The notes beneath the pieces are model-generated. The model was given only the letters and a program-made list of their open reading frames with translations. It did no database searches and was not told where the DNA came from. The translations under genes and the position numbers were made by a program. A DNA stretch of 33,008 nucleotides from Armatimonadota bacterium (GTDB lineage Bacteria > Armatimonadota > Armatimonadia > Armatimonadales > Armatimonadaceae), in the NCBI GenBank assembly GCA_014380815.1, contig JACMJB010000169.1, positions 1 to 33,008 on the forward strand, given 5' to 3'. Positions 7,369 to 30,192 of this stretch are shown here, in pieces; within the stretch, counting starts at the first letter, position 1, and each line of letters begins with the position of its first letter.

Positions 7369-8162
7369 ACTACCTTCCCCCCGCGCGAATCAATCCGCTC
7401 GGTGATACCGTAAGCTTCCAGTGCATCGGCCCATTTTTCGGTCTTGACGATCACGCGGCGGCGGGCGACACGCTGGGCCTCGGTGACGGCTTCGGGCAGA
7501 AGGCGAGCCAGGCTACCAAAGATGCGAAGCGGTGCGATGGAGCGAGACTGTTCCAGCATTTGGTCGAAGAACGGGTCGAAGCAGACCACATCGTAGCGAC
7601 CACTGGGACAGGCACGCAGGAACTCCAGATGATGGCCAAGATGCATCACCTGAACACGGCGCATGGCGGCGTTCAGGATCACCTGGTCCGTGGCGACGGT
7701 CTTCAGACCTTCCCGCACCACGATCCCAAGCTCCGGGACCGCCTCGATGCCGTGGACCTCACCGCTGTCGCCGACGACATGCGCGCAAAGGATCGCTTCA
7801 GATGCGTAGCCCAGGGTGGCATCCAGCACGGAATCGCCGGGGCTGAGCTGCGCGGCCTCGGTCAGCAGGTCCCGCCCACCGCGCAGGACGTTGCCGAGGC
7901 GCAGATACGCCATATTGGGGTGATAAAACAGCTCCTCGCCAGTGCGCTGGGTCAGCAGCAGGCGGTCGGCCTGGACCACCAGGGCACGAAGGGCGAGCGG
8001 ATGGGCTTCAAAGAGCCGGGGGAGTCCCTGTTCGCTTCGAGGAACAAACGCGGCGCCAAGCTCCTCCGCGATAGACTGCGCGTGCGCCTGCAGCACGGGC
8101 GCGCGCTTGAGCGCCGTGGTAACAAAAAGATCGGCGCGTGACAGGGAAGTGACAGGAAACAC
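7344..8162 (-). CDS. Class I SAM-dependent methyltransferase, RsmJ/YpiP-like
   Basis: About 272 residues. The N-terminus (FVTTALKRAPVLQAHAQSIA, then EELGAAFVPR) matches the lead-in of YpiP-like proteins. SAM-binding motif I is SVLDATLGYASEA (residues 111-123), the acidic end of strand 2 is VHGIE, and motif IV is CFDPFF, the counterpart of the DPMF/DPMY motif of RsmJ. RsmJ methylates G1516 of 16S rRNA in E. coli, but the YpiP branch has no proven substrate, so rRNA or another nucleic acid is an inference. The start is the GTG at 8162: no ribosome site precedes it, but a TATACT -10 box sits seven bases upstream, fitting a leaderless mRNA. The gene is divergent from the inositol phosphatase gene with only 43 bp between them. 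Confidence 0.78.
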   Translation of the reverse strand: MFPVTSLSRADLFVTTALKRAPVLQAHAQSIAEELGAAFVPRSEQGLPRLFEAHPLALRALVVQADRLLLTQRTGEELFYHPNMAYLRLGNVLRGGRDLLTEAAQLSPGDSVLDATLGYASEAILCAHVVGDSGEVHGIEAVPELGIVVREGLKTVATDQVILNAAMRRVQVMHLGHHLEFLRACPSGRYDVVCFDPFFDQMLEQSRSIAPLRIFGSLARLLPEAVTEAQRVARRRVIVKTEKWADALEAYGITERIDSRGGKVVYGILPAR

Positions 8163-8177
8163 AATCGTTAGTATATC
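8149..8177. promoter_or_regulatory. Overlapping divergent promoters of the methyltransferase and inositol phosphatase genes
   Basis: On the minus strand TATACT (8170-8175) lies seven bases before the methyltransferase GTG; a TTGTCC at 8195-8200 is a possible -35 with a long 19-base spacer. On the plus strand GTGACA (8149-8154), a 17-base spacer and TATATC (8172-8177) form a promoter for the phosphatase gene. The two -10 boxes share AGTATATC and overlap by four bases, so one polymerase binding would exclude the other. The plus -35 lies inside the methyltransferase coding region. Confidence 0.55.
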
Positions 8178-8205
8178 GGCGCAACGACTCGAAAGGACAA
8201 ACCGC

Positions 8206-9015
8206 GTGGCGGAACAAGACCAACTGGAGCTGACGGCGATACTCGCCTGGACGAAAGAACTCGCGGCAGAGGCGGCGGACCGTGCGATGCACCTCCGTGA
8301 GAAGGAGATGCACGTCCGCGCGAAGCCCGACGGCTCGCTGGTCACGGACATTGACCAGGCGATCGAACGGTTCCTGCGCGACGCGATCACGGCCCGGTTC
8401 CCCGACCACGATATTCTGGGAGAAGAGTTCGGACGCGAAGCCGACCACTGCGAGGGCGCGCCGCTCTGGGCGATTGACCCGATTGACGGGACCACAAATC
8501 TGGCGCATGGCCTGCCGCACTGGGGAACAAGCATCGGCCTGGTGGCGGACGGTCATCCGGCGGTGGGCGTGGTCGTCTTTCCGGAGCTTCGCGAGACCTT
8601 TGCCGGGGCACGCGGGCGGGGGGCAACGCGAAACGACGCACCGCTTGCGCCGCTGCCGACCGGCGGCACTTTGACCCAGGAGGACGCTTATGGCATCTGC
8701 ACCACGAGCATCCACCGGGTCTCGTTCGACCGATTTCCCGCCCGCCTGCGCCTCAGTGGGTCGGCGGCGCTGGATGTCTGCTGGACCGCCGCCGGGCGGC
8801 TCGCCGGTTCGCAAAGTGTCGGCGTTTCGCTCTACGATATTGCCGCCGCGCTCTGTTTCGCGCGCGAAGTTGGGGCGGAATCACGCTGGCTCCGCTCCGG
8901 CACTCTGTTTTCCGCCGATACCCTCGCCGCCCATGGCCCCGTAGAGGGCGACGTTTTGCTCACCGCCCCCCCCGCGACGGCGGCTTACCTCCGGGAGGCA
9001 CTGGCGCTGCGCTAA
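8206..9015 (+). CDS. Inositol monophosphatase family protein (possible histidinol-phosphatase)
   Basis: 269 residues, normal for the family. The Mg-dependent phosphatase motifs are present in order: DILGEEFG (Glu73-74), AIDPIDGTTNLAHGLP (Asp91, Asp94, Thr96), LSGSAALDVCWTAAGRL, and SLYDIAAALCFAREVGA, which holds the metal ligand Asp211 but has Tyr where most members have Trp. These enzymes hydrolyse phosphate monoesters such as inositol-1-phosphate, histidinol phosphate or 3',5'-bisphosphates. The sequence alone does not settle the substrate, and no histidine or inositol gene adjoins it. The GTG start follows GAAAGGA at 8191-8197. The 3' end faces an oppositely oriented gene across a short hairpin. 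Confidence 0.85.
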   Translation: MAEQDQLELTAILAWTKELAAEAADRAMHLREKEMHVRAKPDGSLVTDIDQAIERFLRDAITARFPDHDILGEEFGREADHCEGAPLWAIDPIDGTTNLAHGLPHWGTSIGLVADGHPAVGVVVFPELRETFAGARGRGATRNDAPLAPLPTGGTLTQEDAYGICTTSIHRVSFDRFPARLRLSGSAALDVCWTAAGRLAGSQSVGVSLYDIAAALCFAREVGAESRWLRSGTLFSADTLAAHGPVEGDVLLTAPPATAAYLREALALR

Positions 9016-9032
9016 CCGTCTGCTTTAGACGG
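9016..9032. terminator. Short hairpin between convergent genes
   Basis: CCGTCT at 9016-9021 and AGACGG at 9027-9032 form a 6-bp stem with a GCTTT loop, immediately after the phosphatase stop codon and just before the stop of the opposing gene at 9037. There is no T-run, so termination strength is doubtful. Confidence 0.42.
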
Positions 9033-9036
9033 CCCA

Positions 9037-10458: not shown

Positions 10459-10654
10459 TTTCGCTGCCCTCCCTGAAGATCGTGCCGAACCCATTATGTC
10501 CGGTGAGTCTGTCAAAAACCTTTCAGAATAATCTCGAGCGAGCGGCAGCATAGGCAGATCGGTGAGAACCGGGTCAGCGCTCCGCGCGGGCTGAAACAGG
10601 AAGGCCTCCGCCTCCAGAGCGACCAGGTACAAGGACAATGCGTCCGTTTCTGCC

Positions 10655-11482: not shown

Positions 11483-11934
11483 GGGTTTTCTTTCTGGTAG
11501 ATGTCGGGAAAGTGACGTTCCATATAGCGGTCGGCGGCTTCGATGCGGCGAAAGCCGATCTTTTCGTAAAGCGAATGGGCATCGGCGGTCAGCAACATCC
11601 AGCGGCGCAGTCCCTGCAGATCGGGGTGGGCAGCGATCACCTCCACCAGCCACTTGCCCAGACCCCGCCCCCGATGCTTCGGAGCGAGGTAGACATCGCA
11701 CAGATAGGCGAATGTCGCCCGGTCGGTAACGACGCGGGCGAGGCCGACCTGCCCCAGTGTCGCATGGTAGATCCCAAAGACAAGCGAATGGTCCAGAGCG
11801 CGCACCATCACCGCGCGCGGGACGCCTTTTGCCCAGTAGGTCCCGCCGATGAACGCGGTGACCCGGTCATCGTCCACGCGCGCCCGGTCATCGCTGATCT
11901 CATATTCGTCGCCCCGACTCCATTCGTGACTCAT
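11479..11934 (-). CDS. GNAT family N-acetyltransferase
   Basis: 151 residues, a single GNAT domain. The acetyl-CoA pyrophosphate-binding motif A is VYLAPKHRGRGLGKWLVEVI (R-G-R-G-L-G), followed by LRRWMLLTADAHSLYEKIGF, the typical motif B with its Tyr-Glu-Lys-x-Gly-Phe. Family enzymes transfer an acetyl group from acetyl-CoA to an amine; the acceptor is unknown. Four-base ATGA overlaps on both sides tie it translationally to kdsB and kdsA, which suggests but does not prove a part in Kdo or lipid A-core modification. The N-terminus (DEYEISDDRARVDDDRVTAF) resembles the group of small stand-alone acetyltransferases often placed near unrelated genes. Confidence 0.88.
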   Translation of the reverse strand: MSHEWSRGDEYEISDDRARVDDDRVTAFIGGTYWAKGVPRAVMVRALDHSLVFGIYHATLGQVGLARVVTDRATFAYLCDVYLAPKHRGRGLGKWLVEVIAAHPDLQGLRRWMLLTADAHSLYEKIGFRRIEAADRYMERHFPDIYQKENP

Positions 11935-12692
11935 CGCTCTCCACCACCTTCAAGCAAGGCGCGCACCCGCAGGAGATCGTCCAGGGTGTCTACCGACTCG
12001 GGCGCGCGGGCCGCCTCGACCATGCGGATACGATAGCCATGCTCCAGTACCCGAAGCTGCTCCAGTGATTCAGCCTGCTCCAGGGGTGTGGGGGCAAGGC
12101 GCGTGAGAAGCGGCAGAAAGTCCCGGCGGTAGGCATACAGCCCGACATGCTGGCGGGGCGCGTACGGGGCGTTTTCACTCCGGCGGTGGGGGAGCGGGGA
12201 GCGGGAAAAGTACAGCGCGAAGCCGTGGACATCGCAGACGACCTTGACGACATTCGGGTCGGATTCGCGTCCGGGGGGAAGCGGGCACTGGACCGACGCC
12301 ATCACCAGCGACCCATCCGCGAGCAGGGGGGCGGCGACCGCTTCGATGGTGCCCGGGTCGAGCAGCGGTTCGTCGCCCTGCACATTGACGATCACGGTTA
12401 TCGCATCCGGCAGATGGGCGGCGGCCTCGGCGACCCGGTCCGTGCCTGTCAGATGGTCCGGCGACGTTCGCACGGCCTTTCCACCGAACGCCTCGACCGC
12501 TTCGAGAATGGCATCATCGGGGGTTGCCACAATCACGACGGCAAACCCGGCGGCGCGGCGGGCGCGCTCGTAAACGTGCTGGATCATTGGCCTGCCCGCC
12601 AGGAGCGCGAGCGGCTTATTCGGCAGGCGAGTGGCGGCAAGCCGGGCGGGAATAATCGCGGCGGCGACAGCGGTGTTGGTTTGTTCACGCAT
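11931..12692 (-). CDS. kdsB: 3-deoxy-manno-octulosonate cytidylyltransferase (CMP-Kdo synthetase)
   Basis: 253 residues, the normal size. It activates Kdo with CTP to give CMP-Kdo, the donor for Kdo transferases at the inner membrane. The nucleotide-binding start IIPARLAATRLPNKPLALL, TGTDRVAEA, VNVQGDEPLLDPGTI, the QHVGLYAYRRDFLPLL segment and LEQAESLEQLRVLEHGY are all family hallmarks. The start at 12692 is the only reasonable ATG; it has no ribosome site, but a promoter-like sequence ends seven bases upstream, so the message may be leaderless. It heads the operon with the GNAT gene and kdsA. kdsC, kdsD and waaA are not in the window. Confidence 0.95.
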   Translation of the reverse strand: MREQTNTAVAAAIIPARLAATRLPNKPLALLAGRPMIQHVYERARRAAGFAVVIVATPDDAILEAVEAFGGKAVRTSPDHLTGTDRVAEAAAHLPDAITVIVNVQGDEPLLDPGTIEAVAAPLLADGSLVMASVQCPLPPGRESDPNVVKVVCDVHGFALYFSRSPLPHRRSENAPYAPRQHVGLYAYRRDFLPLLTRLAPTPLEQAESLEQLRVLEHGYRIRMVEAARAPESVDTLDDLLRVRALLEGGGER

Positions 12693-12699: not shown

Positions 12700-12728
12700 A
12701 TTTTGCGCGGAAGGCAGTCAGCCTGCAA
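12700..12728 (-). promoter_or_regulatory. Predicted leaderless promoter of the kdsB operon
   Basis: On the minus strand TTGCAG (12723-12728), a 17-base spacer and CAAAAT (12700-12705) lie upstream of kdsB. Seven bases separate the -10 from the ATG at 12692, so transcription would begin at or next to the start codon. Each hexamer matches the consensus only partly (3/6 and 4/6). Confidence 0.45.
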
Positions 12729-12845: not shown

Positions 12846-13566
12846 CTATCTGCCTTCCCAGTGGCCCCGCATCCAGCGCTTACGGCTGCCCTTGAGATGT
12901 ACCAGAACCACATCGGCCTTCAGGTCAAACAGATTTCGGGCGCGCTCCGGCGTGTAATTGAACTGCAACCTGCTGCGGTGGTGAATCACGGGAGAACACA
13001 TTACCAAGTATAGCAGCCAGTGCAAGCGGATCGCCCCACCACAGGTCCTGGTGAAACCGCTCGTCGAACACGGTCAGCACGGTATCGAAAAAGCGGATCG
13101 CCGCGTCATGATGGTCGGTTTTGACTGGCGGGACGCCCGCGTTGATCGGCATCTCCGGGTGAGGCCGATTGGGCAGCGCCACGTCAAACGACTCTGCGAA
13201 GGCTGGCTCCAGCAAGCCATTGATCAGGACATCCGAATCCAAGAAGAGGATATGGGCAGCCGCGTTTCCGCTGTGGTGTCCTGCTTCCTGCAGGAAATCT
13301 CGCTCGGCTTGAAGGCGGCTCCAGAGAGGGTCGTTCGAGCGGGCTGGGCGGCGGCAAATCTCGATGGGTGCGGGCAGATCAAGCGGCGTCATTTCGTCGG
13401 AAAGGCAGACGCACCGGCAGTCCGGGTGGAAATGACGCGCGGACCGAAATAGCAGCGCAATCCAATGGGAGGCATCGTCCCGCACCCGGAATGAGCGCGC
13501 GTCGCGGCTTAGAGTCGTTCGCAGATCCTCGGGGAGTGCCATGTGAAACGTGGCAAATGTAATCAT
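12846..13566 (-). CDS. DXD-type glycosyltransferase-like protein with an apparent frameshift near the C-terminus
   Basis: The main frame runs from ATG 13566 to a stop at 12925 (about 213 residues) and contains ILFLDSDVLING (Asp110-x-Asp112), the metal-nucleotide motif of GT-A glycosyltransferases, followed by VALPNRPHPEMPINAG and FHQDLWWGDPLALAAILGNV. Around 12960-13000 the protein becomes implausible (VAVQLHAGARPKSV), while the +1 frame continues without a stop to TAG at 12846 and reads RLQFNYTPERARNLFDLKAD and VVLVHLKGSRKRWMRGHW. That ending, with an Asn-Tyr-Thr-Pro and a His-Leu-Lys-Gly, fits glycosyltransferase C-termini far better. The cause is either a one-base insertion in the strain or assembly, or a decaying gene. 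The coordinates given span both frames. A TATAAT box lies nine bases before the ATG. Confidence 0.62.
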
Positions 13567-13575: not shown

Positions 13576-13581
13576 ATTATA
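13576..13581 (-). promoter_or_regulatory. -10 box of the DXD glycosyltransferase gene, near-leaderless
   Basis: A perfect TATAAT on the minus strand lies nine bases before the ATG at 13566. No Shine-Dalgarno sequence fits between them, and no clear -35 is seen. A start site 6-8 bases downstream would leave a leader of at most about three bases. Confidence 0.5.
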
Positions 13582-13629: not shown

Positions 13630-14871
13630 CTACACCGATGTCTGAGAGCGGGACACTCTCCCTTCCAGCCCTGATCTGGCAGAATCGAGAAGCGATAGGG
13701 ACGCCTCAAACACCTCCTCGACCGTGAGTAGGCGCATGCATTTATAGGCTGCATCGGTTTCAGCAAAGGCGCAGACATCCCGGTCGCAGGGGGCACAGTC
13801 CACCGAATGCGCCATCGGCAGGCCATGACCGACGATCGGTGCCCGTCCCTCGATAGGGGTCGAGCCAAACAGCGCGACATAGGGGGTATCCACCGCCCCT
13901 GCGACGTGCATCGGGCCGGTATCGCCGCTCACCAGCAGGTCCGCCTCCTCTATCAGAGAGAATACCTGCCGGAAATTAAAGACGCCCACCGCAAGGATCG
14001 GTGGGACACGCATCCGCGCGGCGATCTTCTGTAGATCAGCCTCCTCTTTTCCAGCCCCCATCAGAACAATCCGGCAGCCCACCTCCCCCAGCCGATCTCC
14101 CAGTTCCGCGTAACGCTCGCCGGGCCAGTGACGTGTCTTCCATCCCGCCAGTGGTGCGAGGACTACGAGCCGCTCCGCGCGACGTGGTCCGGCCTCGACC
14201 CCCTCCTGCTGCAAAAAATCCTGTACCCGTTTCCGGTCCGCCGCCGTGTAACCCACGACCGCTTTTCGGCTGACCCCCTCCTCCAGTCCCAGGGCGCGCA
14301 GCGGCAGCAGGTATTGATCCGTCCGGTGAACGGGAAGGTCCTCGAACGTGAAGGCGTGGGTGTAAAATCTTCGGAGCGAGCTGGTTTTGGTGCTCCGATG
14401 AAACGCGCGAAAGGTGTCAAACACTCCGATGCGCGTGGAGGCCCCCACGTTTTGCACCAGCAGCGACCAGTCCTCCGGATGGAACGAGATAAAGGTGTCG
14501 AAGCGGCGCTCCCGCAGTTCCCGGCGAAACTTCAGCGCTTTGGTCAGCCACAGGGGATACATCGCCCGGCGCATCATTCGTTTCCAATAAAGGCCCTCCC
14601 AGGAAAGAATGGAGTCAACGAACGGGTTCGCGTCTATCGTATCGTGCAGGGACGACTCGACCATCCAGGTCAGGTGCGCCTCAGGGTAGGCGGCGCGCAG
14701 CGCCGCCAGCAGCGGCGTCCCCATGACAATATCCCCGTTCGCGATGACCCGCATAATCAAGATGCGGTGTGACGCCTTTTCCCGCGAGACAGGGCACCGC
14801 CGCATCGCCGCATTGCAGGGAGTGAGGGGAGCGAGGAACTCAGGATAACTGCCAATGTCGAAATAAGCCAT
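13630..14871 (-). CDS. Glycosyltransferase family 9 protein (heptosyltransferase-like), tandem paralogue
   Basis: 413 residues from the ATG at 14871, one base after the previous gene's stop and after an AGGA site. It is a GT-B enzyme of the ADP-heptose:LPS heptosyltransferase family. It shows ILIMRVIANGDIVMGTPLL, whose Gly-Asp holds the proposed catalytic Asp, APLAGWKTRHWPGERY in the donor site, and VSGDTGPMHVAGAVDTPYVALFG. The C-terminal cysteine cluster VDCAPCDRDVCAF with a later YKCMRLLTVEEV is typical of the WaaF-type branch. An N-terminal extension, YPEFLAPLTPCN, is shared with the neighbour upstream, pointing to a tandem duplication. It closes the glycan operon. The donor is presumably ADP-heptose; the acceptor is unknown. 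Confidence 0.9.
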   Translation of the reverse strand: MAYFDIGSYPEFLAPLTPCNAAMRRCPVSREKASHRILIMRVIANGDIVMGTPLLAALRAAYPEAHLTWMVESSLHDTIDANPFVDSILSWEGLYWKRMMRRAMYPLWLTKALKFRRELRERRFDTFISFHPEDWSLLVQNVGASTRIGVFDTFRAFHRSTKTSSLRRFYTHAFTFEDLPVHRTDQYLLPLRALGLEEGVSRKAVVGYTAADRKRVQDFLQQEGVEAGPRRAERLVVLAPLAGWKTRHWPGERYAELGDRLGEVGCRIVLMGAGKEEADLQKIAARMRVPPILAVGVFNFRQVFSLIEEADLLVSGDTGPMHVAGAVDTPYVALFGSTPIEGRAPIVGHGLPMAHSVDCAPCDRDVCAFAETDAAYKCMRLLTVEEVFEASLSLLDSARSGLEGRVSRSQTSV

Positions 14872-14872
14872 C

Positions 14873-16108
14873 TTATAGTCCTGCAGGGTCCCGCGAAGTC
14901 TCTCTGGCGACAGACGATGACATTGCGGCATCACCAGGGTGAAGTTGCTGAAGCACCGCTGCCAGCACCGCCTCCTGCGTGAGGCCCCGCAGACACTGCT
15001 GATAGGCGTTCCCGGTCAGGGGACACACGCGGCGATGGCAGGGGGAGCACTCCACGGGATGCAGCATCGCCAGGCCCCCACCACCCCGGGGCGCGAAGCG
15101 CGCGGGAGGGGTCGGCCCGAAGAGCGCCACATAAGGCACTCCCACGGCGGCGGCGACATGCATCGGTCCGGTATCGCCGCTCACAGTGATCGCGGCACGG
15201 GCGATTAGCGCCGCAAGCCCTCGAAAACCGAAGGTGCCCGCCGCGAGCACGGGGTGGGTGTGCATCTGGTCCGCGACCTCCCGCACCACGCTGCGATCTT
15301 TTTCACCCCCACCCGCCACGAGAACGATCCGGTGGCCCAGCGCCTTCGTGATTCCGTCAGCGACGGCGGCGTATCGCTCCGTGGGCCAGTGCCGCGACGG
15401 CCAGCCAGCGACCGGCGCGATCACCACGAAGGGCGAATCGTTCAACTCCCGCTCGATAAACTGCCGAGCGATCTGCTCGTCCTCCTCGGTGTAGCCAAGC
15501 GTCATTCGCTTATCCGAAGGGACGGGCAGTCCCAGCTCCTCTAGGGGCAGCAGGTACTGATCTACCCGGTGCTCCGGATGCTCCTCGTAGGAGAATGCGC
15601 GGGTGTACCGGCGGGACCACCGGCTGGTTCTTTTCTGCCCATGGTATTCCCGAAACGTATCAAAGACACCGATTCGAACGGAAGATCCGATATCACGCGC
15701 CAGGAAGGACCAGTCCTCCGGCTGCAGCGAAATGAGCAGATCGTACGACTTCTCGCGTAGCAGATACCGCATTCGCCGCCAGCGAAGAAACCACAGCGGA
15801 TACAGCCCCGCGCGCGTCATTCGCTTCCAGTAGGCCGTGTCCCAGAGCAGCAGTTCGTCCAGATGCGGATTGGTGTCCAGCACCTCCGAATTCCGGTACT
15901 CGACCATCCAGGTGATATGAGCATCCGGCCAGGCGTGGCGCAGCGCGGTCAGCAGCGGCGTCCCCATCAGAATATCGCCGTTGGCCCCCGTGCGGACAAT
16001 CAGAATGCGACGCGATGCCGCCTGCATCGAAGGCGCGGTGGATCGCTGAACGGGAACATTGCAGGGGGTAAGGGGCGCTAAGAATTCAGGAAAACGCAGC
16101 TTCGGCAT
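14873..16108 (-). CDS. Glycosyltransferase family 9 protein (heptosyltransferase-like), tandem paralogue
   Basis: 411 residues. Motifs are ILIVRTGANGDILMGTPLL, LISLQPEDWSFLARDIGSS, IAPVAGWPSRHWPTERYAAV, VSGDTGPMHVAAAVGVPYVA and the cysteine cluster VECSPCHRRVCPL with QQCLRGLTQEAV. It is colinear with the gene that follows it, including the N-terminal FPEFLAPLTPCN and the ISLQPEDWS/ISFHPEDWS region, so the pair arose by duplication and has diverged. Like its partner it has Arg-His-Trp in place of the Lys-Trp donor motif of WaaC. The family acts on the cytoplasmic face of the inner membrane. An AAGG site lies ten bases upstream of the start. Confidence 0.91.
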   Translation of the reverse strand: MPKLRFPEFLAPLTPCNVPVQRSTAPSMQAASRRILIVRTGANGDILMGTPLLTALRHAWPDAHITWMVEYRNSEVLDTNPHLDELLLWDTAYWKRMTRAGLYPLWFLRWRRMRYLLREKSYDLLISLQPEDWSFLARDIGSSVRIGVFDTFREYHGQKRTSRWSRRYTRAFSYEEHPEHRVDQYLLPLEELGLPVPSDKRMTLGYTEEDEQIARQFIERELNDSPFVVIAPVAGWPSRHWPTERYAAVADGITKALGHRIVLVAGGGEKDRSVVREVADQMHTHPVLAAGTFGFRGLAALIARAAITVSGDTGPMHVAAAVGVPYVALFGPTPPARFAPRGGGGLAMLHPVECSPCHRRVCPLTGNAYQQCLRGLTQEAVLAAVLQQLHPGDAAMSSSVARETSRDPAGL

Positions 16109-16129
16109 AACGGTTTTGCCTTGTGGCTC

Positions 16130-17371
16130 CTACCTTGCAGCGGGAGCCGGATGTGGCTGAAGACCCGGTGGTTGCGAAAGCTGCGGCAGTTGCGAGAGGG
16201 GCGGAGCTTCGCGCTGAACCATCTCGCCCATAAAAACATCCGCGCCCTTCATTCGAGGCAGCAGAGCGTCCGCGAAAGTGTAGCACGGGATATTATACAG
16301 TCGTCGCAGGTAAAACAGGGCCGCCGATGTCCCCGCCACGCATCCTGCCAGTTCGAGCCGTTCCGCGACCAGTTCGACGGGAAAGGGATGCGGCAACGAC
16401 AGCTGCTGAACTCGCTCCTCCGCGCCCTGGTGCCGCGCCTTCATCCTTGCCTTGAGTTCGGTGAAGAAAGGCAGTCTGATCCGAGGGTGTTCTTTCCATA
16501 AAATCTGGTACCCCTTCGATAGGAGCGTGTCGAACACCTGCAGATAAATGTCCATCTCCTCCTCGCGGGTCATGATGCCATTGCGCGACAAGGCCTGTCC
16601 GAGGACTAGCAGTCGGTTCGGCGCCGACTCCGACTCCGCTGCACCGAATCCAGCAGCATCGTCCGGCAGGATTCGTGCGACTCTCTCCAATACTTCCCGC
16701 AGGTGGCGATATGCCACGAACTGTCGGGGAACCCGCGCCAGTGTTTCCGGCGCGGGCAGTTCGGGAGCCAGCTGCAGGTAAGCCCCGGTTACACGGGCCA
16801 GATGCTGAATATCAAGTTTCCGGCGGCTGCGCCGAAACCGCCACACAGGCCAGCGTGCATCCATTCGGCTTTGAAAACCGACAAAAAAGGGCCGTAGCAG
16901 GCGGGGGCGCCGCGAGTTGTCCAGAGCCATAGCGATGGGAACCGGGATGTAGGAGGTCAAACCGTCCTCGAACAGCACGACCCGCGCCCTCTGGTAGGTT
17001 TCGAACACTATTTTTTCCGCGGGGCGCGTCAGAAAGCAGACCCAGACCTCCTCCACCTGGTCTGCCGGTACCCCGACCCGCTCCTCCAGCGCTGCGCGCA
17101 GCGCATCGAATCGCTGCTGACTGAATTTTCGCTCGTTGGTAAGCAGATCGTAGGCACTGACAATGCGCTTCCACGGCCAGGCGACTTCGGCCATCTGATG
17201 CAGGATCTGCTTGAACTCGTCGGGAACACCACCCGTCTCATAAACCACCAGGTAGTCCTCGTAGATCGGTGCGGCATCGCCCGCCATTGCCGCCTGGTCC
17301 TTCGCCTCCTGAAGCGCGGCGGTCAGTGTCAGTAGCTGCCACGTCCCGACAGTGTAGAAGACCCGGATCAC
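16130..17371 (-). CDS. Polysialyltransferase-like (POLYST family) glycosyltransferase
   Basis: 413 residues. The sequence fits the alpha-2,8-polysialyltransferase family (GT-B fold, sialyltransferase type). It has an N-terminal [17 protein letters not shown], an acidic loop [17 protein letters not shown] (Glu135-Asp136-Gly137), the [19 protein letters not shown] strand, the [14 protein letters not shown] motif with the conserved His295-Pro, and [15 protein letters not shown] with Ser349 near the CMP phosphate site. Characterised relatives use CMP-sialic acid. No sialic acid genes are here, but kdsA/kdsB make CMP-Kdo, so a CMP-Kdo donor is a reasonable alternative. The C-terminus is a Pro/Gln-rich low-complexity tail. 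It starts in an ATGA overlap with the hldC stop and sits between heptosyltransferase genes. Confidence 0.78.
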
Positions 17372-17850
17372 GCTGCGGGTCCTTCCCCGCTCCCGCCTTC
17401 CATCAAACCGATCAGACGAGTCGTTGAGCGGCCCGGCACCAGAGGCAGAATCACAACCTCGCCGCCGAGCGACCGGACCAGCGGCGTTTCCGGCAGTGCA
17501 TCAGGCGTTTGGTAATCGCCGCCCTTGGCATGGATACTGGGTCGCACCACCTCGATCAGCGCGTGCGGTGTGTCCTCATCGAAAACGCAGGTCCCCTCCA
17601 CGCAGCGCAGGGCAGCGATCACTTCCGCCCGCTCCTCTTGCGCGTTGAGGGGGCGTGTCGGCCCCTTCAGCCGCCGCACGGAGGCATCGCTGTTGATCCC
17701 AACGAGCAGTGCATCGCCCAGCGCGCGCGCCTGCTCCAGGTACCGAACATGACCGACATGCAGGATGTCGAACACGCCGTTCGTGAAAACGACGCGCTTG
17801 CCGTCCGCTCGCAGACGCTCGGCAAGCGCCGCTAGCTCATCGCGGGTCAT
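17368..17850 (-). CDS. hldC: D-glycero-beta-D-manno-heptose 1-phosphate adenylyltransferase
   Basis: 160 residues, the size of a stand-alone adenylyltransferase domain, the C-terminal half of E. coli HldE (also named RfaE2). It converts heptose-1-phosphate and ATP to ADP-heptose, the donor for the neighbouring family-9 enzymes. The cytidylyltransferase-fold HxGH motif is in [20 protein letters not shown], with [36 protein letters not shown] and the C-terminal [14 protein letters not shown]. The separate kinase (HldA) and phosphatase (GmhB) are not in the window. ATGA overlaps join it to the GT9 gene before it and the POLYST-like gene after it. Confidence 0.93.
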
Positions 17851-18947
17851 AGCCCCCCTCCGCCTGTCGCTGAGGCTTCCTCGCCACGCCCAGAAAGCAG
17901 GGCGGGCCTCGCCTTGGAGGGGAAGAGGGAAGAGGACGAAAACAGCCGCTGCTTCACGGCGGCAAGCACCCAGGTGACGGGCATCTCGGTCATGCAGGCG
18001 ATGTCTCCACGAGCACAGGTACGGCTCTGGCAGGCGATACAGGGCAGGGCACGGTTGATGACCACCAGATCGCGCGGGCTGAGCGGGCCGGTGCGGTCGG
18101 GGTCGGCGGCACCGGAGAGGCAGACCAGGGGCGCTCTCACCGCCGAGGCGATGTGGAGCGGGCCGGTATCGGCGGTCACGACGCAGTGGGCACGGGCGAG
18201 CAGTGCGCCCAGCTCCTTGATCGAGACACGACCGGCGAAATTGGCGACCCGCCCCGGCTCGCGCAGCGCCCGAAGAATCGCCTGAACCAGCGCGAGGTCG
18301 GTGGGGCCTCCGGAGATCGCGACCCGAACATCGGGAAGATCCACAGCGAGGCGGTTCAGCAGTTCGGTGAACTTTTCCGCCGGCCAGCGATTGACGTCAC
18401 GAGTCGCGGCGGGATTCACGACCAGCAGGGTGTCGGCTGGGGCGATGCCGAATTCACCCCCAAGCAAGGCCGCGACCCGCGCCGTAGCAGCGGCGGGCAC
18501 GGCAAAATCCATCTGCCGATCCGGAACCGCCGGGATCCCGAGCGGGCGCAGTTCTTTGCTGAAATCATCCACGGCGTGCCGGACACGCCCCGTCTCTGGC
18601 TGCTTGCGGCGGTCTTTCTTGAACGTGAGGACACGCGGCGCACCGGATGCGACCGCCATGGCGATGGTCTTGGCGCTGGGATGAAAGTTGACGAACAGAT
18701 CGTAACGCCTGTTTCGGAGGGTCAGCAGAAAGGGGAAGAAGCGGGCCAGCCGCGCATCCGGCCCTGCTTTATCGAACTCGATCACCTCGCGCAGATAGGG
18801 GATTCCGGTCAGCGCGTCCTTCATGCCCTTGCCGACCACGAAATCAATTTCGTCCGTCTCGAAGTGCTGGGCGAGGGCACGTACCGCCGGGGTCGCGAGC
18901 AGGATATCCCCCATCCCGCCCAGCCGCACGACACAGAGGCGTTTCAT
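17847..18947 (-). CDS. Glycosyltransferase family 9 protein (heptosyltransferase-like)
   Basis: 366 residues from the ATG at 18947, which forms an ATGA overlap with the gene before it; a much longer open frame exists upstream but it is antisense-like noise. Motifs are [79 protein letters not shown] and a C-terminal cysteine set [19 protein letters not shown]. The donor-site position has Asn-Arg-Trp rather than Lys-x-Trp. It is expected to add heptose to an LPS core or similar acceptor. The last 25 residues are Ser/Gly-rich and probably disordered. Confidence 0.91.
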
Positions 18948-20074
18948 CGGTTCGCCCCCAGCGCAAACGTGGAGGGAATGGCGGAGTCTGCGGCGGCAGT
19001 GGGGTCTGAGGGGGACACGGGATTTGGCGGAGAGGAGCTGAGAAGAAGGGTACGGGCGGCGGAAAGGACCGGCGCGACCTCCAGCTTTTTCAGACAGCCA
19101 TCGGGCGCGGCGATCACGAGATTGCGCGGACTGGCTTCGCCCCACTTCTCCGCAAGAGTCGGGCCGAACAGGGAAACGGTCGGGGTTCCCAGTGCGGCGG
19201 CGATATGGCTGACCCCGGTATCGTTGCCGATAAACAGCGACAGATGGGCCAGAATCCCCATTGTCTCGCGCATCGAAGTCTCGCCGGTGAGATCCACGAC
19301 CGGGAACCGCTCTCCCATCGCCTCGCGCAGGACACGGGAGGCGTCGCGCTCGGTGGTCCCGCTTCCCAGGAGCACGATGCTGGCCCCTTCGCCCGCTAGC
19401 GCCCGCGCGACCTCGGCGAACCGGGAAGGGTCCCACTGCTTGGCACGATACGATGCGCCGGGCTGGATTCCGACCAGCACCGGGCCAAGCGCTTCCCGCT
19501 CCCGCAGGATCGCCGCGCCGCGCCGACGCTCGGTTTCGGTGATACAGAGCAGTGGCATCGGATCCGCAAGTGATCCCGCGAGCGTGTCGGACAGCGGCCC
19601 CGGCGCGGTGACCGCGCGCAAAATATCCAGGCAGCACTCGCTTTCGCGCTTTTCGAGATCATACGGAACGCGGTGGGTGAGCAGGCAGCCGCGCCCCTCG
19701 GTGTCGAAACCCGCCCGAACCCGCGCGCGGCAGAGAAGGGCGATCAGGGCCGCGCGAACGGAACGATCCGCTACCAGGCACAGATCGGGACTCCCGCCGA
19801 TCCTGCCTCGGAGCGCGCAGATCAGCCGCCAGGAAGCTGCCGCCCCTTTCTGGGTTCGCTTCGGGTCGTAGGCCTCGATATTGTCCACAAACGGAAACTC
19901 CAGCAGTGTCTGGGCCGCCGCACCGCCGGTCAGCAGCGTGATTGCCGCCTGAGGGAAAGCGTGGCGGACCCCCCGCAGCAGCGGCGTGGCCACGATCGTA
20001 TCGCCCATGAAGTTGTGCTTGGTGATTACCAGGACGGTACGAACAGTGCGGGACTCCGGGGGCGAAAGCGGCAT
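18944..20074 (-). CDS. Glycosyltransferase family 9 protein (heptosyltransferase-like)
   Basis: 376 residues. It has VLVITKHNFMGDTIVATPLL with the conserved Gly-Asp, LCLVADRSVRAALIALLCRA, VGIQPGASYRAKQWDPSRFA with the Lys-x-Trp donor motif, and FIGNDTGVSHIAAALGTPTV. Unlike most of its neighbours it lacks the C-terminal Cys cluster, and ends in a Pro/Ser/Ala-rich tail that overlaps the next gene by four bases. Its own start shares one base with the stop of the preceding gene (TGATG). Its sequence is distinct enough from the others that a different acceptor is likely. Confidence 0.9.
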   Translation of the reverse strand: MPLSPPESRTVRTVLVITKHNFMGDTIVATPLLRGVRHAFPQAAITLLTGGAAAQTLLEFPFVDNIEAYDPKRTQKGAAASWRLICALRGRIGGSPDLCLVADRSVRAALIALLCRARVRAGFDTEGRGCLLTHRVPYDLEKRESECCLDILRAVTAPGPLSDTLAGSLADPMPLLCITETERRRGAAILREREALGPVLVGIQPGASYRAKQWDPSRFAEVARALAGEGASIVLLGSGTTERDASRVLREAMGERFPVVDLTGETSMRETMGILAHLSLFIGNDTGVSHIAAALGTPTVSLFGPTLAEKWGEASPRNLVIAAPDGCLKKLEVAPVLSAARTLLLSSSPPNPVSPSDPTAAADSAIPSTFALGANR

Positions 20075-21282
20075 CAGCGGCTTCCCCCCTCGGAGATGCG
20101 TCGCGGGGAACCACCGGAGACCGCGACAGCGGGCGTGCGCGGCGCGGACGCAGCGATCATCGGCAAAGCGGTTCGCCGGAGCGGCAGTGCCAGAAGGTCG
20201 CAGGCGGACTCAAAAACCCGCTCCGGTGTGAAAGACTTCAGGCAGTCGAATCTGCCGCCGCAAGTCGGGTTCTTGCGGCAGGGCGCGCAGGCGAGAGCGT
20301 CGTAGAGAACCACGGCGGGCGCGCACGGACTGCGCGCTGCGGCGCTGCCGCCCTGCCAGGGGCCGGTTTCGGCAGGGTCGGTCGAGCCGAACAGCGCGAC
20401 CACGGGTGTCGCCATAGCGGTCGCGATATGAAGCGGGCCGCTGTCGCCGGAGATCACCAGGCCCAGACGGTCCACCAGAGCCGCGAGCTGCTTCTCCGAA
20501 GTCTTGCCCACCAGCGACGACAGCGGCGTGTTCGGAGCCAGGGCCATGACGCGCTGAGCGGCCTCGACCTCCTCCGGCCCGCCGAGCAGAACGCAGGAGA
20601 CGCTTTGCGTAGACCACAGCTTCTCCGCCAGACGCGCCCAGTACTCTTCCGGCCAGCGTTTCTGGGGACGAGTCGCGCCGATCACCAGTCCGACAACTGG
20701 CGGCATCAGTTCGTGGTGCCGGAACACATGGTCCGCGAAAGCACGGTCCTCTGTCGAGATCGCGATGGAGAGAGGGGGCGGTGCGGACTTACCTGAGTCC
20801 GTGGCCTCCGGCACGGCATCGGCGAGGCGCAGATATGCCTCCACGACATGTTCGCCCGCACGGCGCTCCGCCACGCGGTGGGTCAAAAACGGGGTGCAGC
20901 CATCCTGCGCGAAGCCGACTCGGATCGGCACACCGAGCAGCCAGGCCAGTGCGGCATTAGACGCGATGCTTTGGAACAAAACGGCGGCATCATAGCGGCC
21001 CGTGCGGATCGTACGCGCGAAGGCGCTGGCGCGGGCGGACCCGCTGCGCCGGGGACGGACCAGGACGCGGTCAATGTTCGGGTTGCCTGCCAGGATCGCG
21101 GCAGCCCGCTCCCCGGCAAGCACCTCGATCGAAGCGTCGGGGTAACGCGCCCGCAGAGAAGCAAGCGCCGGGGTCGTGAACAAGGCGTCGCCTAGATAGT
21201 TCAAGTTCACCGCCAGAATCCGCCGGATGGGCTGGTGATCCCGATCTCCTGTCTGATTTTCTGTTTCTTGCGTTCGGTGCAT
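20074..21282 (-). CDS. Glycosyltransferase family 9 protein (heptosyltransferase-like), first gene of the operon
   Basis: 402 residues. Motifs are ILAVNLNYLGDALFTTPALA, VLFQSIASNAALAWLLGVPI, VGLVIGATRPQKRWPEEYWA with Lys-Arg-Trp, VISGDSGPLHIATAMATPVV and VALFGSTDPAETGPW. The cysteine cluster is LACAPCRKNPTCGGRFDCLK. The N-terminus (HRTQETENQTGDRDHQP) is a short polar extension. The start has an AAGG site seven bases upstream. It is the first gene of the run ending at 13630; the 118-bp gap before it holds a tandem 9-bp repeat but no convincing -35/-10 pair. Confidence 0.91.
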   Translation of the reverse strand: MHRTQETENQTGDRDHQPIRRILAVNLNYLGDALFTTPALASLRARYPDASIEVLAGERAAAILAGNPNIDRVLVRPRRSGSARASAFARTIRTGRYDAAVLFQSIASNAALAWLLGVPIRVGFAQDGCTPFLTHRVAERRAGEHVVEAYLRLADAVPEATDSGKSAPPPLSIAISTEDRAFADHVFRHHELMPPVVGLVIGATRPQKRWPEEYWARLAEKLWSTQSVSCVLLGGPEEVEAAQRVMALAPNTPLSSLVGKTSEKQLAALVDRLGLVISGDSGPLHIATAMATPVVALFGSTDPAETGPWQGGSAAARSPCAPAVVLYDALACAPCRKNPTCGGRFDCLKSFTPERVFESACDLLALPLRRTALPMIAASAPRTPAVAVSGGSPRRISEGGSR

Positions 21283-21359
21283 CCCGGTGCCTTAGGCGCT
21301 CGCCTGTCGCGGTTACCGAAGTGACCGCACGATTGCAGTTTACGTGTCGCCGCTGTTCT

Positions 21360-21377
21360 TTAGTACAATTAGTACAA
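21360..21377. repeat. Tandem 9-bp repeat upstream of the GT9 operon
   Basis: TTAGTACAA occurs twice without a gap at 21360-21368 and 21369-21377; on the minus strand it reads TTGTACTAA twice. It lies 78-95 bases before the first gene of the heptosyltransferase operon, in an AT-rich pocket of a GC-rich sequence, so a promoter or regulator site is possible. Confidence 0.5.
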
Positions 21378-21400
21378 TGCCACCGTCAAATGGTTTCGCG

Positions 21401-22453
21401 CTACAGCAGTTTTTTAGCGGCCTCCGCCGCGGCTTCGGCGGGAATTCGTGCCAGCGAATCCCCCAGCGTCGGGCGGCGCGGACGCCGCGCCTCCGGCGGT
21501 GCGTCCCCTTCTGCATAATCCAGAACAATAGACCGGCCCGCACCCCACTGCGGACCGGTCCGAACGGGGTCGGTCACGCCATACAATCCGACCACGGGCG
21601 TTCCCACCGCGACCGCGAGATGGGTCGGGCCACTGTCGCCGCCGATCACCACGTCACACTGCGCCAGCACCGAGGCTAACACCTTCAGTGGCGTTCGTCC
21701 CACCAGGTCTGCCGCAACCACGCCGCCTGCCATCTCGGTGATCCGCGCCGCCGTTTCCCGCTCGCCCGCCCCGCCCAGCAGTACCAGGCGCACACCCTGC
21801 CCGCGCAAAATGCCCACCAGCATCGCCCAGCGCTCTGGAGGCCAGGCCTTCTCCGGCGTGGACGCCCCCACGATACCGCCGACTATCGGCCCACTGCCGG
21901 TGGCCTCTCCCAGCAGCGCCCGCGCTGCCTCGCGCTGCCCATCGGCAAGGTACTGCTGCGGGCGCGGCGCGGGACGCGCGATCCCCAGCACATCGCAGAA
22001 GCCCATTAGCTTTTCCACCATATGGGCCCTCGCCTTCGCCGGCACGACCGGGTGCGTCAGAAAGAGCGCACTCCCTTCGCGGTTTAAATCCAGTCCGATA
22101 CGGAGGGGGGCGTGAGAAAGCCAGGTAACGACCCCTGATTTGAGCAGTCCCTGGGCATCCAGAGCAGCATCAAAGGGCTTTCCACCCTGTCTCAGCGTTC
22201 GCCCAAAGACGATCAGATCACCCAGACTGTGTCCTCTGAGTGTGGTCACCGTGGAAAGATTCGGGTTTCCGCAGAGCAGGTCGGCGAATCTGTCGCGCAC
22301 CGCCCACACGATCTCCACGGAAGGGCCAAGTCCGGCTCGCAGGGCGTCCGCCAGCGGCAGTGCGTGAACCACGTCTCCCAGCGAGCTTAGCTTGACTAGG
22401 AGGACCCGGTGGAGTCTGGAGGAATCAGGGGAGGCGGGGGGGCGAATCAGCAT
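21401..22453 (-). CDS. Glycosyltransferase family 9 protein, WaaC (heptosyltransferase I)-like
   Basis: 350 residues from the ATG at 22453. It is the closest in the window to WaaC: VLLVKLSSLGDVVHALPLAD (compare the SSMGDVLHTLP motif, with catalytic Asp), FDAALDAQGLLKSGVVTWLS, IVGASTPEKAWPPERWAMLV with the donor-site Lys, and VIGGDSGPTHLAVAVGTPVV. WaaC adds the first heptose to Kdo of the inner core using ADP-heptose. It has no C-terminal Cys cluster, as in WaaC. A longer frame upstream is rejected because a TGT-TATAAT extended -10 lies six bases before this ATG. It is separated from the operon downstream by 118 bp, so it may be transcribed separately or read through. Confidence 0.9.
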   Translation of the reverse strand: MLIRPPASPDSSRLHRVLLVKLSSLGDVVHALPLADALRAGLGPSVEIVWAVRDRFADLLCGNPNLSTVTTLRGHSLGDLIVFGRTLRQGGKPFDAALDAQGLLKSGVVTWLSHAPLRIGLDLNREGSALFLTHPVVPAKARAHMVEKLMGFCDVLGIARPAPRPQQYLADGQREAARALLGEATGSGPIVGGIVGASTPEKAWPPERWAMLVGILRGQGVRLVLLGGAGERETAARITEMAGGVVAADLVGRTPLKVLASVLAQCDVVIGGDSGPTHLAVAVGTPVVGLYGVTDPVRTGPQWGAGRSIVLDYAEGDAPPEARRPRRPTLGDSLARIPAEAAAEAAKKLL

Positions 22454-22459: not shown

Positions 22460-22475
22460 ATTATAACACCGATCG
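22460..22475 (-). promoter_or_regulatory. Extended -10 promoter element of the WaaC-like gene, leaderless
   Basis: The minus strand reads CGATCGGTGTTATAAT, ending six bases before the ATG. TGT-TATAAT is a consensus extended -10, which explains the absence of a -35. There is no Shine-Dalgarno sequence, so the mRNA should start at the AUG. Fourteen of the 16 bases recur before the XRE regulator gene. Confidence 0.62.
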
Positions 22476-23015: not shown

Positions 23016-23746
23016 CGGTGAACGGTCTCAGCGGGGGCGGACGCAAGGGCAAACTCAACGATCGCGGAGGCATGGAGGGCGGTGGTGTCAAAGCGCCGGA
23101 GCGGAAAAGAACCGGTGTCTTCGCCGATGAGGAGCATCAGCTCGGTACAGCCCAGCACGACTCCCTCGGCTTTCTTCTCCTGCCGCAGGCGCAAGGCGAT
23201 CTCCTTCAAGCACTGGCGCGACTCCGCGCGCACGATGCCCCGGCAAAGCTCCTCGAAGATGATGTTGTGGATCGCGTCGCGCTCCCCATCACTGGGAATC
23301 AGGACGCTCAGTGCATAGCGATCTCGCAGATAATCCGCAAGGAATGGCTGCTCCATGGTGTAGCGCGTCCCCAGCAGCGCGACACGCTCGATCCCCGCGG
23401 CGCGAACGGCGGCTCCAACCGCATCGCCAATATGAAGCAGCGGGATGCCGCTTGGTGCGGCCTCCGCGACCTCGGCAGCGACTTTGTGCATGGTATTCGT
23501 GCAGATCGCCAAACACCCGGCCCCACCGTCGCAAAGCTGTCGGCCCGCACGGGCCAGTGTCTGCGCCGCCTCGTTCCAGGCCCCATCCTGCTGCAGCCGA
23601 ACGATCTCCGCGAAATCGAAGCTATGAAGCAGGATCGGCGCGGAGCAAAGCCCTCCCCTGCGCTCCCGAACCTGTTCATTGATCATTTTGTAATAAACGG
23701 CGGTGGATTCCCACGACAGCCCTCCGATCAGCCCGATTGTCTTCAC
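23012..23746 (-). CDS. Aspartate/glutamate racemase family protein
   Basis: 244 residues. It begins MKTIGLIGGLSWESTAVYYK, the hallmark start of the aspartate racemase branch. The two cofactor-independent catalytic cysteines are in AICTNTMHK (Cys82) and VLGCTELMLL (Cys200), with LLHIGDAVG and VALLGTRYTMEQPFL between. It interconverts L- and D-forms of an amino acid, most often Asp or Glu; broad-spectrum relatives (YgeA, RacX) act on others. D-amino acids could feed the peptidoglycan or act as signals. An ATGA overlap with the XRE-cupin gene makes it the regulator's immediate partner. Confidence 0.91.
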   Translation of the reverse strand: MKTIGLIGGLSWESTAVYYKMINEQVRERRGGLCSAPILLHSFDFAEIVRLQQDGAWNEAAQTLARAGRQLCDGGAGCLAICTNTMHKVAAEVAEAAPSGIPLLHIGDAVGAAVRAAGIERVALLGTRYTMEQPFLADYLRDRYALSVLIPSDGERDAIHNIIFEELCRGIVRAESRQCLKEIALRLRQEKKAEGVVLGCTELMLLIGEDTGSFPLRRFDTTALHASAIVEFALASAPAETVHR

Positions 23747-24480
23747 GTCTTGTTTCCATTCTCGGTTTCCCGGCGGCGCTCGCTGTGCGTATCCTCACGG
23801 GTATCAATCCAGAGCGAGAGTAGCCTGACTGGCAGCCGATCAGCGTCCTCGGAGTCCCCAGCGTCCCCGGCGGGTCCGTAGGAGTGGCGCTCGGCGCACC
23901 AGAACGCGGCGGCATCCCCCTCATGGAGTGGGTAGACACGACCCGCGACTGTCAGCGCTGCCGTGCCCCGCAGGCAAAAAACGATCTCTTCGCCGGGATG
24001 TGTCACCGACTCACTCTCCGCGAACAGCTCCAGCACGGCGGCGTTCAGGCGTCCGCCCGGCAGTCGGCAGTTCAGGACCGAAAGCAGCACAGTTTCATCG
24101 GCGGCGAACGAGGATCTTCCCCCAGCACCGGCGGGGGCTTGTCGGACCTCCTGGTCACGAGAATGAAGGACGACCGGGGAATCCTCCGGTTCAGGACGGG
24201 TGAGCTGCGCGACATGGATCCCCAGCGCCTCACAAACGTGGGTGAGCGTTGCGTAGGAGGGCGTCAGCCCCTTTTCCAGCCGCAGAATCGTGTTTTTGTT
24301 GACCCCGGATCGCTCGGCCAGGTCGCGCACCGAGAGATCCTGCTTCAAGCGGTATCGCTGGATTCTCGCCCCCAGCGTTTTCGGGGAGGGGGTCATCACG
24401 AAGTCAGGCTTTTCGCTTGGCGGCGGGGCTGCGCTCGCGACGGTGGCACGAGGAATCGTTGCGTTTTCCGTCTTGGTCAT
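23743..24480 (-). CDS. XRE-family regulator with C-terminal cupin domain
   Basis: 245 residues. A helix-turn-helix of the XRE type (about residues 36-92) contains LGARIQRYRLKQDLSVRDLA, ERSGVNKNTILRLEKGLTPS and LTHVCEALGI. The C-terminal half is a cupin (about 140-220), with SVTHPGEEIVFCLRGTAALT, VYPLHEGDAAAFWCAERHSY and a final VRLLSLWID. Such regulators bind a small ligand in the cupin and often control adjacent amino acid or polyamine metabolism. Its co-transcription with an amino acid racemase suggests a D- or L-amino acid ligand; this is inference. The start codon lies ten bases after a TATACT and has no ribosome site. An inverted repeat upstream is a candidate operator. Confidence 0.9.
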   Translation of the reverse strand: MTKTENATIPRATVASAAPPPSEKPDFVMTPSPKTLGARIQRYRLKQDLSVRDLAERSGVNKNTILRLEKGLTPSYATLTHVCEALGIHVAQLTRPEPEDSPVVLHSRDQEVRQAPAGAGGRSSFAADETVLLSVLNCRLPGGRLNAAVLELFAESESVTHPGEEIVFCLRGTAALTVAGRVYPLHEGDAAAFWCAERHSYGPAGDAGDSEDADRLPVRLLSLWIDTREDTHSERRRETENGNKT

Positions 24481-24490: not shown

Positions 24491-24506
24491 AGTATAACAC
24501 CAATCG
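24491..24506 (-). promoter_or_regulatory. Extended -10 promoter element of the XRE-racemase operon
   Basis: The minus strand reads CGATTGGTGTTATACT, ten bases before the ATG at 24480. TGT-TATACT is an extended -10. It matches the element before the WaaC-like gene in 14 of 16 positions. Confidence 0.58.
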
Positions 24507-26270: not shown

Positions 26271-26288
26271 GGAGACAGCGATTAACCA

Positions 26289-26723: not shown

Positions 26724-26745
26724 CATCGTGTCGGTGAAGGTTAAG

Positions 26746-26782: not shown

Positions 26783-26906
26783 GTTTCTGACCGGGGCGCG
26801 GCTGCAGGGGGGCATTAATAACGAAACACGCCGCTTTTCCGATAAGTAAGGGAAGACGTTCGTTTTTCTGGGTACAGATGGGCTATCTACAGAATCGAGG
26901 CAGGCG

Positions 26907-28491: not shown

Positions 28492-28586
28492 CGGGTTTTG
28501 ATGTTCCTTCCGTCCGGTGAACGAAGGATCGCTCCGCAGACTGGGTTATTGAAGCAATCATACCCGGATAAGCCACAAAAGCCGTC

Positions 28587-29210
28587 TCACCAGCGGCTGG
28601 ACACGCCGACCGGGGAGGCAGGTGAACTCGGAGAGTGGTCCACGATGTTGTCTATCAGACCATACGCAGTCGCCTCTTCCGCCGACATAAAGAAGTCCCG
28701 CTGAATGTCGGTCTTGATCCGCTCCTCGGATTGACCAGTGCGCTCGGACAGGATCTGGGCGAGGACGCGATTATGATAGAGCGCTTCGCGGGCCTGGATT
28801 TCGATGTCCATCGCGGTCCCTTGAAACCCGCCGCTGACCTGGTGGATCATCATCCGCGCGTGTTTGAGGGCGGACCGCTTACCTGGCGCGCCCCCGGCCA
28901 GCAGCACGGCGGCGATCGAGGATGCGCTGCCCATGCAGATGGTTGCGACATCCGGCTTGATGGTCTGCATGGTGTCATACATGGCGAGTCCCGACGACAC
29001 CACGCCGCCCGGCGAGTTGATATACAGTTCAATATCGCGGTCCGGATCCTGCTTTTCCAAAAACAGCAGCTGCGCGATGACGACGTTCGCCAGGTGGTCG
29101 TCCACCTGTTCACCCAGAACGATGATGCGGTCTTTGAGAAGCCGCGAGTAGATATCGTAGCCACGCTCACCGCGCGCATCTTGCTCCACCACATAGGGAA
29201 TAACTGGCAT
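28587..29210 (-). CDS. clpP: ATP-dependent Clp protease proteolytic subunit
   Basis: 207 residues, the same length as E. coli ClpP. It assembles into a double-heptamer serine protease in the cytoplasm, fed by ClpX or ClpA/C. The conserved [20 protein letters not shown], the oxyanion segment [20 protein letters not shown], and the triad Ser98 ([14 protein letters not shown]), His123 (ARMMIHQ) and Asp172 ([13 protein letters not shown]) are present. GSASSIAA replaces the commoner GQAASMGA around the nucleophile, a mild deviation. AAGGAG lies eight bases before the ATG. The gene is not next to clpX or tig, so it may be one of several clpP paralogues. Confidence 0.95.
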
Positions 29211-29278
29211 TTTTACTTCTCCTTACGGGACGCGACGGGTGTCGTCCCGGCGTTCCCTCTCACTCTGCAAACCGAGTT

Positions 29279-29812
29279 TTACGCTCTCACAAACGCCGCG
29301 CCGCGGGGGCGACGTTCGCTTCGTCTCTTCTGCCCTCGATCAAGAACAAGGAAGAGGGCAAGCCGCGCCAGCGCCCCACCAAAGGAGACAGTGGCGGCTG
29401 CGCGGAGCGGGGCATGCTCGATGACCAGTCGGGTCGCCGCCCCGTCCTGCTCCGGGATCAGCGTCCAGGTAACCCGGGTCGTCAGGGCTTTTTGCTCGCC
29501 GGATTCTGGCGATATAACGCGCCACCAGAGCGAGAGTCGCCGCTCACCATCGGCCTCAGCTACCTCATAAGCGATTCGCACGGTGGGCGTGGCCCGAAGC
29601 GTGACCGACTCCCCCGTGGTATCCAGCGGTCTGGGAGCGTCCCCACGGGAAGAAGGAGCAATGGAGAGCAGCCACTTCTCGATGGCCTCGGGCTGGGTCA
29701 GCGCGCGCCATACGCGGCGCGGCGAATGCGGCAGAGTCCGCTCCAGTCGGACCGTTTCGGGCGGGACCGCAATCTCATCCAAGGGGGTATCTAAAGGGGT
29801 GGTGTTCTTCAT
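29279..29812 (-). CDS. SRPBCC / AHSA1 family protein
   Basis: 177 residues. A START-like (Bet v 1-fold) protein of the Aha1-homology type: VRLERTLPHSPRRVWRALTQ, PEAIEKWLLS, the strand VRIAYEVAEADGERRLSLWW, and VTWTLIPEQDGAATRLVIEH followed by a long C-terminal helix ALARLALFLVLDRGQKRR. The cavity binds small hydrophobic ligands in related proteins, but the ligand is unknown here. It overlaps the ArsR gene by ATGA, the common ArsR-AHSA1 arrangement, and is presumably controlled by it. Confidence 0.87.
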   Translation of the reverse strand: MKNTTPLDTPLDEIAVPPETVRLERTLPHSPRRVWRALTQPEAIEKWLLSIAPSSRGDAPRPLDTTGESVTLRATPTVRIAYEVAEADGERRLSLWWRVISPESGEQKALTTRVTWTLIPEQDGAATRLVIEHAPLRAAATVSFGGALARLALFLVLDRGQKRRSERRPRGAAFVRA

Positions 29813-30156
29813 TTATCTTCCTCCTCACGCTTCGCCTCTTCCTCTAAGTAGCTGGACAGAGCATCCAGCTTTTCGGTCCAGAACCGCTCATAGGTCCGTG
29901 CCCAGTCGGAGACTTCGCGAAGCGGGTGCGCCTCCAAACGGTACCATCGCTCGCGTCCCGCCTGCCGCACCGAAACCAGACCCGCCGCGCGCAGCACCTT
30001 CAGGTGCTGCGAAACCGCCGAAAGCGTCATCGCCAGCGGAGCGGCGATCTGTGTGGGAGTCCGCTCATCGGCACCGCAAAGGTGCCGAAGAATCGCCCGC
30101 CGGGTAGGATCGGCGATCGCCTGAAATACGCTGGGTTCCGCGGCTGTTGGACTCAC
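29809..30156 (-). CDS. ArsR-family transcriptional regulator
   Basis: 115 residues, a winged helix-turn-helix. IADPTRRAILRHLCGADERT and PTQIAAPLAMTLSAVSQHLK, followed by VLRAAGLVSVRQAGRERWYR, are diagnostic. No metal-binding Cys-x-Cys is present, so it is of the metal-independent, ligand- or redox-responsive kind that accompanies AHSA1 proteins. The GTG start at 30156 lies six bases after a perfect TATAAT and has no Shine-Dalgarno sequence. It is probably an autorepressor of this two-gene operon through the palindrome in the promoter spacer. Confidence 0.92.
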   Translation of the reverse strand: MSPTAAEPSVFQAIADPTRRAILRHLCGADERTPTQIAAPLAMTLSAVSQHLKVLRAAGLVSVRQAGRERWYRLEAHPLREVSDWARTYERFWTEKLDALSSYLEEEAKREEEDK

Positions 30157-30162
30157 GCTTCG

Positions 30163-30192
30163 ATTATACTTTAGTAATTACTTAAATGTCAA
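30163..30192 (-). promoter_or_regulatory. Consensus leaderless promoter with spacer palindrome, ArsR-AHSA1 operon
   Basis: On the minus strand TTGACA (30187-30192), an 18-base spacer and TATAAT (30163-30168) are both perfect sigma-70 hexamers. Six bases later comes the GTG, so the transcript should begin at the start codon. The spacer contains AGTAATTACT, a perfect 10-bp palindrome with further partial symmetry, centred between the hexamers where an ArsR dimer would block polymerase. Confidence 0.85.

Follow-up and report, generated by a model that had tools for sequence, protein, structure and literature searches.

Does a -10-like hexamer placed directly before a start codon, in a gene with no Shine-Dalgarno (SD) site, mark a leaderless transcript, and how common would such transcripts be? 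The question arises from a window of 33,008 nt (the whole stretch of DNA analyzed here), in which the original prediction named six genes of this kind coexisting with genes led by strong SD sites. Gene starts are predictions throughout.

Start-Adjacent Hexamers in the Window

Five of the six genes, all on the minus strand, have a hexamer at the predicted position and no SD-like site upstream of the start (none in five of five). TATACT at 8170..8175 is 7 nt ahead of the GTG at 8162 of a methyltransferase gene (7344-8162; Pfam match SAM_MT), and TATAAT at 13576..13581 is 9 nt ahead of the ATG at 13566 of a gene for a DXD protein (12925-13566). A second TATAAT (22460..22465; posterior 0.99) lies 6 nt ahead of the ATG at 22453 of a heptosyltransferase-like, WaaC-like gene (21401-22453; GT9). 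The two regulator genes follow the same arrangement: TATACT at 24491..24496 is 10 nt ahead of the ATG at 24480 of an XRE/cupin regulator (23743-24480; HTH_3 and cupin; posterior 0.83) and TATAAT at 30163..30168 is 6 nt ahead of the GTG at 30156 of an ArsR regulator (29809-30156; HTH_20/HTH_5; posterior 0.99). The ArsR promoter also has a -35 element, TTGACA, at 30187..30192 (minus strand), separated from the -10 by an 18-nt spacer.

The prediction did not hold for the sixth gene, kdsB (11931-12692, minus strand; cytidylyltransferase match). Its best hexamer is the weak candidate CAAAAT at 12700..12705, 7 nt ahead of the ATG at 12692, with a likelihood ratio of 5.5 (vs. 30 for the XRE gene and 133 for the DXD gene) and a class posterior of 0.55, and kdsB was excluded from the confirmed set. 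The six starts that were said to have strong SD sites do have AGGA/GGAG-type sites in all six cases. On the plus strand, these are at 350..355 before the ATG at 363 and at 8194..8199 before the GTG at 8206. On the minus strand, they are at 1637..1642 before the ATG at 1627, 6892..6897 before the GTG at 6886 (posterior 0.92), 10468..10473 before the ATG at 10458, and 29218..29223 before the ATG at 29210 (posterior 0.94).

AT-rich intergenic DNA may yield -10-like hexamers near starts by chance. Under a rule that accepts TA...T with at least four of six matches to TATAAT at 5-10 nt before the start, the hit rate is 4.7% for intergenic positions and 0.9% for internal ATG/GTG codons, and kdsB is compatible with this background. 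The five qualifying starts, among the ∼18-20 first-gene starts in the window, correspond to P ∼0.001.

Several other features of the window were observed. The TATACT of the methyltransferase gene overlaps a plus-strand TAGTAT (8169-8175) located 31 nt before the SD-led GTG at 8206, and the 43-bp divergent gap may use one bidirectional -10 for both of its genes, of which one would be leaderless and the other leadered. A palindrome, AGTAATTACT, is inside the -35/-10 spacer of the ArsR promoter (30157-30192); the ortholog in genome G005 has CTTTAG-6-CTAAAG at the equivalent place, and the palindrome is likely an autoregulatory operator. Between two convergent genes, a long near-perfect inverted repeat (GAAGCCTTCTTCGCCCGCGGCGGCTAATTAGCCGCCGCGGGCGAAGAAGGCTTC; 1030-1091) without a T run is possibly a bidirectional terminator. 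At least seven GT9 heptosyltransferase-like genes (13630-22453 and 31721-32854) are close to kdsB, which suggests a large LPS-core type cluster. The DXD gene was passed over by the gene finder, and its product has no Pfam match and no homolog in 11 further family genomes; the gene was possibly acquired horizontally.

Enrichment at a Fixed Spacing across the Genome

Counting -10 hexamers near starts genome-wide, as proposed with the original prediction, revealed enrichment at promoter spacing. Gene calling covered 512 kb of the bacterium's own genome and picked starts on coding score alone, so upstream signals were unable to bias the choice of start, and patterns were also counted in the whole genome. 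In the 512 kb, TANNNT occurs at -14..-11 in 24 cases relative to 10.3 expected (P = 2e-4). The same pipeline yielded 26 versus 8.6 expected in G004, a genome of the same family, 13 versus 3.0 in plasmid 2 of Deinococcus deserti, where a peak is also present, and 4 versus 11.5 with no peak in Escherichia coli K-12. The peak is 12-13 nt before the start codon in the own genome and G004, corresponding to a spacer of 6-7 nt. Across the whole own genome, TATAMTN{5,8}ATG has 74 occurrences, compared with 40 and 30 at the control spacings N{12,15} and N{1,4}, respectively (P = 6e-6), and when pooled across the family the spacing-specific excess of TATAMT has a P of 4e-124. That the excess is specific to one spacing relative to both controls argues strongly against chance, as do conservation in orthologs and the controls of the mixture model described below, and we regard a chance origin as next to negligible.

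Leaderless transcription is very probably the best explanation of the start-adjacent -10 hexamers. In promoters with sigma-70 geometry, a -10 element that ends 6-7 nt before the start codon puts +1 on the first base of that codon (A or G), and an mRNA with +1 at that position has no 5' leader. The hexamers would be -10 elements of the housekeeping sigma factor, and transcription is predicted to start at, or within ∼4 nt of, the start codon. Ribosomes would then recognize a 5'-terminal AUG or GUG, beside ordinary SD-led genes, with translation presumably following the 70S/leaderless route that other bacteria are known to use.

We fit a mixture model in which a gene belongs to a -10 class, belongs to an SD class, or shows neither signal. 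Ten permuted AT motifs served as a control in the own genome and the best of these was 38 log-likelihood units below the real motif, while moving the real motif 8, 13, or 18 nt further away was 44-46 units worse. These controls bear on the possibility that the mRNA has a leader and the hexamer is a noncanonical, AT-rich site of ribosome binding, of the kind described in Bacteroidetes. Such sites, which are AT-rich and not of the SD type, are known in other bacteria (PMC9581028), and an element near the start codon and the large weight of genes in neither class (0.52 in the own genome; the SD class has a weight of 0.32-0.34) would be compatible with them. But a diffuse site does not account for the poor fit of permuted motifs and shifted spacings, nor for a motif that is specifically TA...T with a 6-7 nt spacer and, in the case of ArsR, a matching conserved -35. 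Relative to the ribosome-binding sites of the FCB group (PMC9581028), the likeness is in an AT-rich element near the start, and the difference is that the element here is a spaced -10 box with a conserved T at position 6, found in 36 of 36 listed genes. We therefore consider a ribosome-binding site improbable and favor start-adjacent promoters. A -35 element was not required for class membership. The -35 signal is weak on the whole: scores for -35 elements exceed those of shuffled sequences in the own genome (P = 0.03) and do not differ significantly in G004 (P = 0.32) and G014; the -35 of the ArsR gene is clear.

Conservation in Orthologs

Hexamers are conserved next to start codons in orthologs. 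Among 11 relatives of the WaaC-like protein (41-59% identity), nine, from five other genera, have a -10 (TATAAT, TATACT, TACAAT, or TAAAAT) at 6-10 nt before ATG/GTG, and the other two have no usable in-frame start. The start codon shifts along the protein alignment and the hexamer shifts with it. Orthologs of the methyltransferase gene have TATAAT at 6 nt (G005), TATAAT at 7 nt (G002), or TATACT at 7 nt (G006). For the ArsR gene, the promoter is kept from the -35 to the start in the G005 ortholog (54% identity), with TTGACA-18-TATAGT-6-ATG corresponding to TTGACA-18-TATAAT-6-GTG in the window.

The XRE gene is informative with respect to the accuracy of start codons. If starts were miscalled, the hexamers would belong to ordinary promoters and translation would begin downstream, behind a leader. 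Relatives of the XRE protein begin ∼30 residues after the ATG called in the window, as expected of a miscalled start, but in G004 and G009 the -10 has moved along with the later start (TACACT at 10 and 8 nt, respectively), and the alternative M29 in the window's gene has neither an SD site nor a -10. The other starts match conserved N-termini, and the same pipeline found no such class in E. coli. Miscalling is accordingly a poor candidate, to which we assign little probability, and start-adjacent promoters remain the preferred reading.

Relatives of kdsB are split, with a -10 in three (G004, G007, and G009) and an SD site in five (G003, G005, G008, G010, and G011), indicating that the mode of initiation switches between orthologs. 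Mode switching between orthologs has been described in other bacteria (Zheng et al.; PMC3160421).

Size and Composition of the Class

In the own genome, the -10 class of the mixture model takes in 13.5% of all genes and, among first genes, 16.7%; the corresponding fractions are 29% and 33% (0.332) in G004, 9% and 12% (0.122) in G014, and 8% and 15.5% in the D. deserti plasmid; because the model also helps pick starts that fit the motif, these fractions are estimates. For E. coli, the weight of the -10 class is 0.000 in the same pipeline. In this bacterium and its relatives, the mRNA appears to begin directly at the start codon for about one gene in seven. In G004 the -10 class is underrepresented at operon-internal starts (P = 7e-4); this depletion was not seen in the own genome (P = 0.78). 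In G020, a more distant genome of the same phylum, the class is small, and shifted spacings fit almost as well. At the level of sequence, the view that leaderless transcripts are common and coexist with an SD class is well supported by the spacing enrichment, conservation in orthologs, and clean controls.

The suggestion that the first class is home to regulators and envelope genes was not borne out. The 101 proteins of the leaderless class and the 137 of the SD class both span a broad range of Pfam families, with no convincing bias toward either function, and N-terminal hydrophobicity does not differ between the classes. Glycosyltransferases are slightly more common in the leaderless class, which also includes SecY. 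TTG starts two of 101 genes in the leaderless class, against ten of 138 (P = 0.08), a depletion that is suggestive only.

Distribution across the Phylum

Families were compared in a sample of 150 genomes of the phylum using the spacing-specific excess of TATAMT. Families f1 (ratio of 2.50), f14 (2.47), f16 (2.03), and f2 (1.95) show a strong excess, f3 and f24 a weaker one, and f5 (0.99), f18 (1.02), f20 (1.00), and f28 (1.07) none; the measure is limited to TATAMT and ATG and thus understates genomes with looser hexamers. In genome G049 of the same phylum, a dispersed repeat, TATACTCGTTACGGATG, is present in many copies and inflates the pattern count. In a tree of kdsB, the window's family groups next to a named Armatimonadetes record with moderate support (91/89), and the name of the lineage is accordingly tentative; other members of the phylum are scattered in the tree, which makes kdsB an imperfect marker. 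We consider it somewhat probable that, within one phylum (probably Armatimonadota), several families use leaderless initiation as a major mode, for up to approximately one-third of first genes, and other families lack it, with the kdsB ortholog seen switching between modes.

Relation to Known Systems and Implications

Leaderless genes beside a -10 box are reported for ∼30-40% of genes in Deinococcus-Thermus and ∼20% in Actinobacteria (PMC3160421 and PMC12340547). A survey with GeneMarkS-2 predicted leaderless genes in 21.6% of bacterial species (Lomsadze et al. 2018, as cited in PMC9581028). As in Deinococcus-Thermus (PMC3160421), TANNNT/TATAAT occurs here 6-7 nt before the start codon, beside SD-led genes, and the share is similar or lower (∼13-29% of all genes estimated here vs. 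the ∼30-40% reported there). The differences are in lineage, in a hexamer middle that is more TATAAT/TACAAT-like, and in a strongly patchy occurrence within the phylum. Actinobacteria such as Mycobacterium tuberculosis likewise have a large leaderless fraction beside SD-led genes (PMC3898074 and PMC4633059), and they too differ in lineage. Relative to both groups, the class described here is a prediction from sequence. A literature search of incomplete coverage returned no report on leaderless genes in Armatimonadetes, Armatimonadota, or Fimbriimonas; PMC12340547 scanned the whole domain. It is well supported at the level of sequence that a mechanism already known would here extend to a lineage for which no report was found, with a patchy distribution within the phylum.

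If 5' ends confirm these predictions, another deep lineage would join Deinococcota and Actinobacteria in the large-scale use of leaderless mRNAs, and gene starts in genomes of the lineage would need reannotation with a promoter-aware start model. If the proposed distribution is true, the phylum offers a natural series for studying gain and loss of leaderless initiation. With confirmed 5' ends, its on/off pattern among families would permit a test of what keeps leaderless initiation in genomes.
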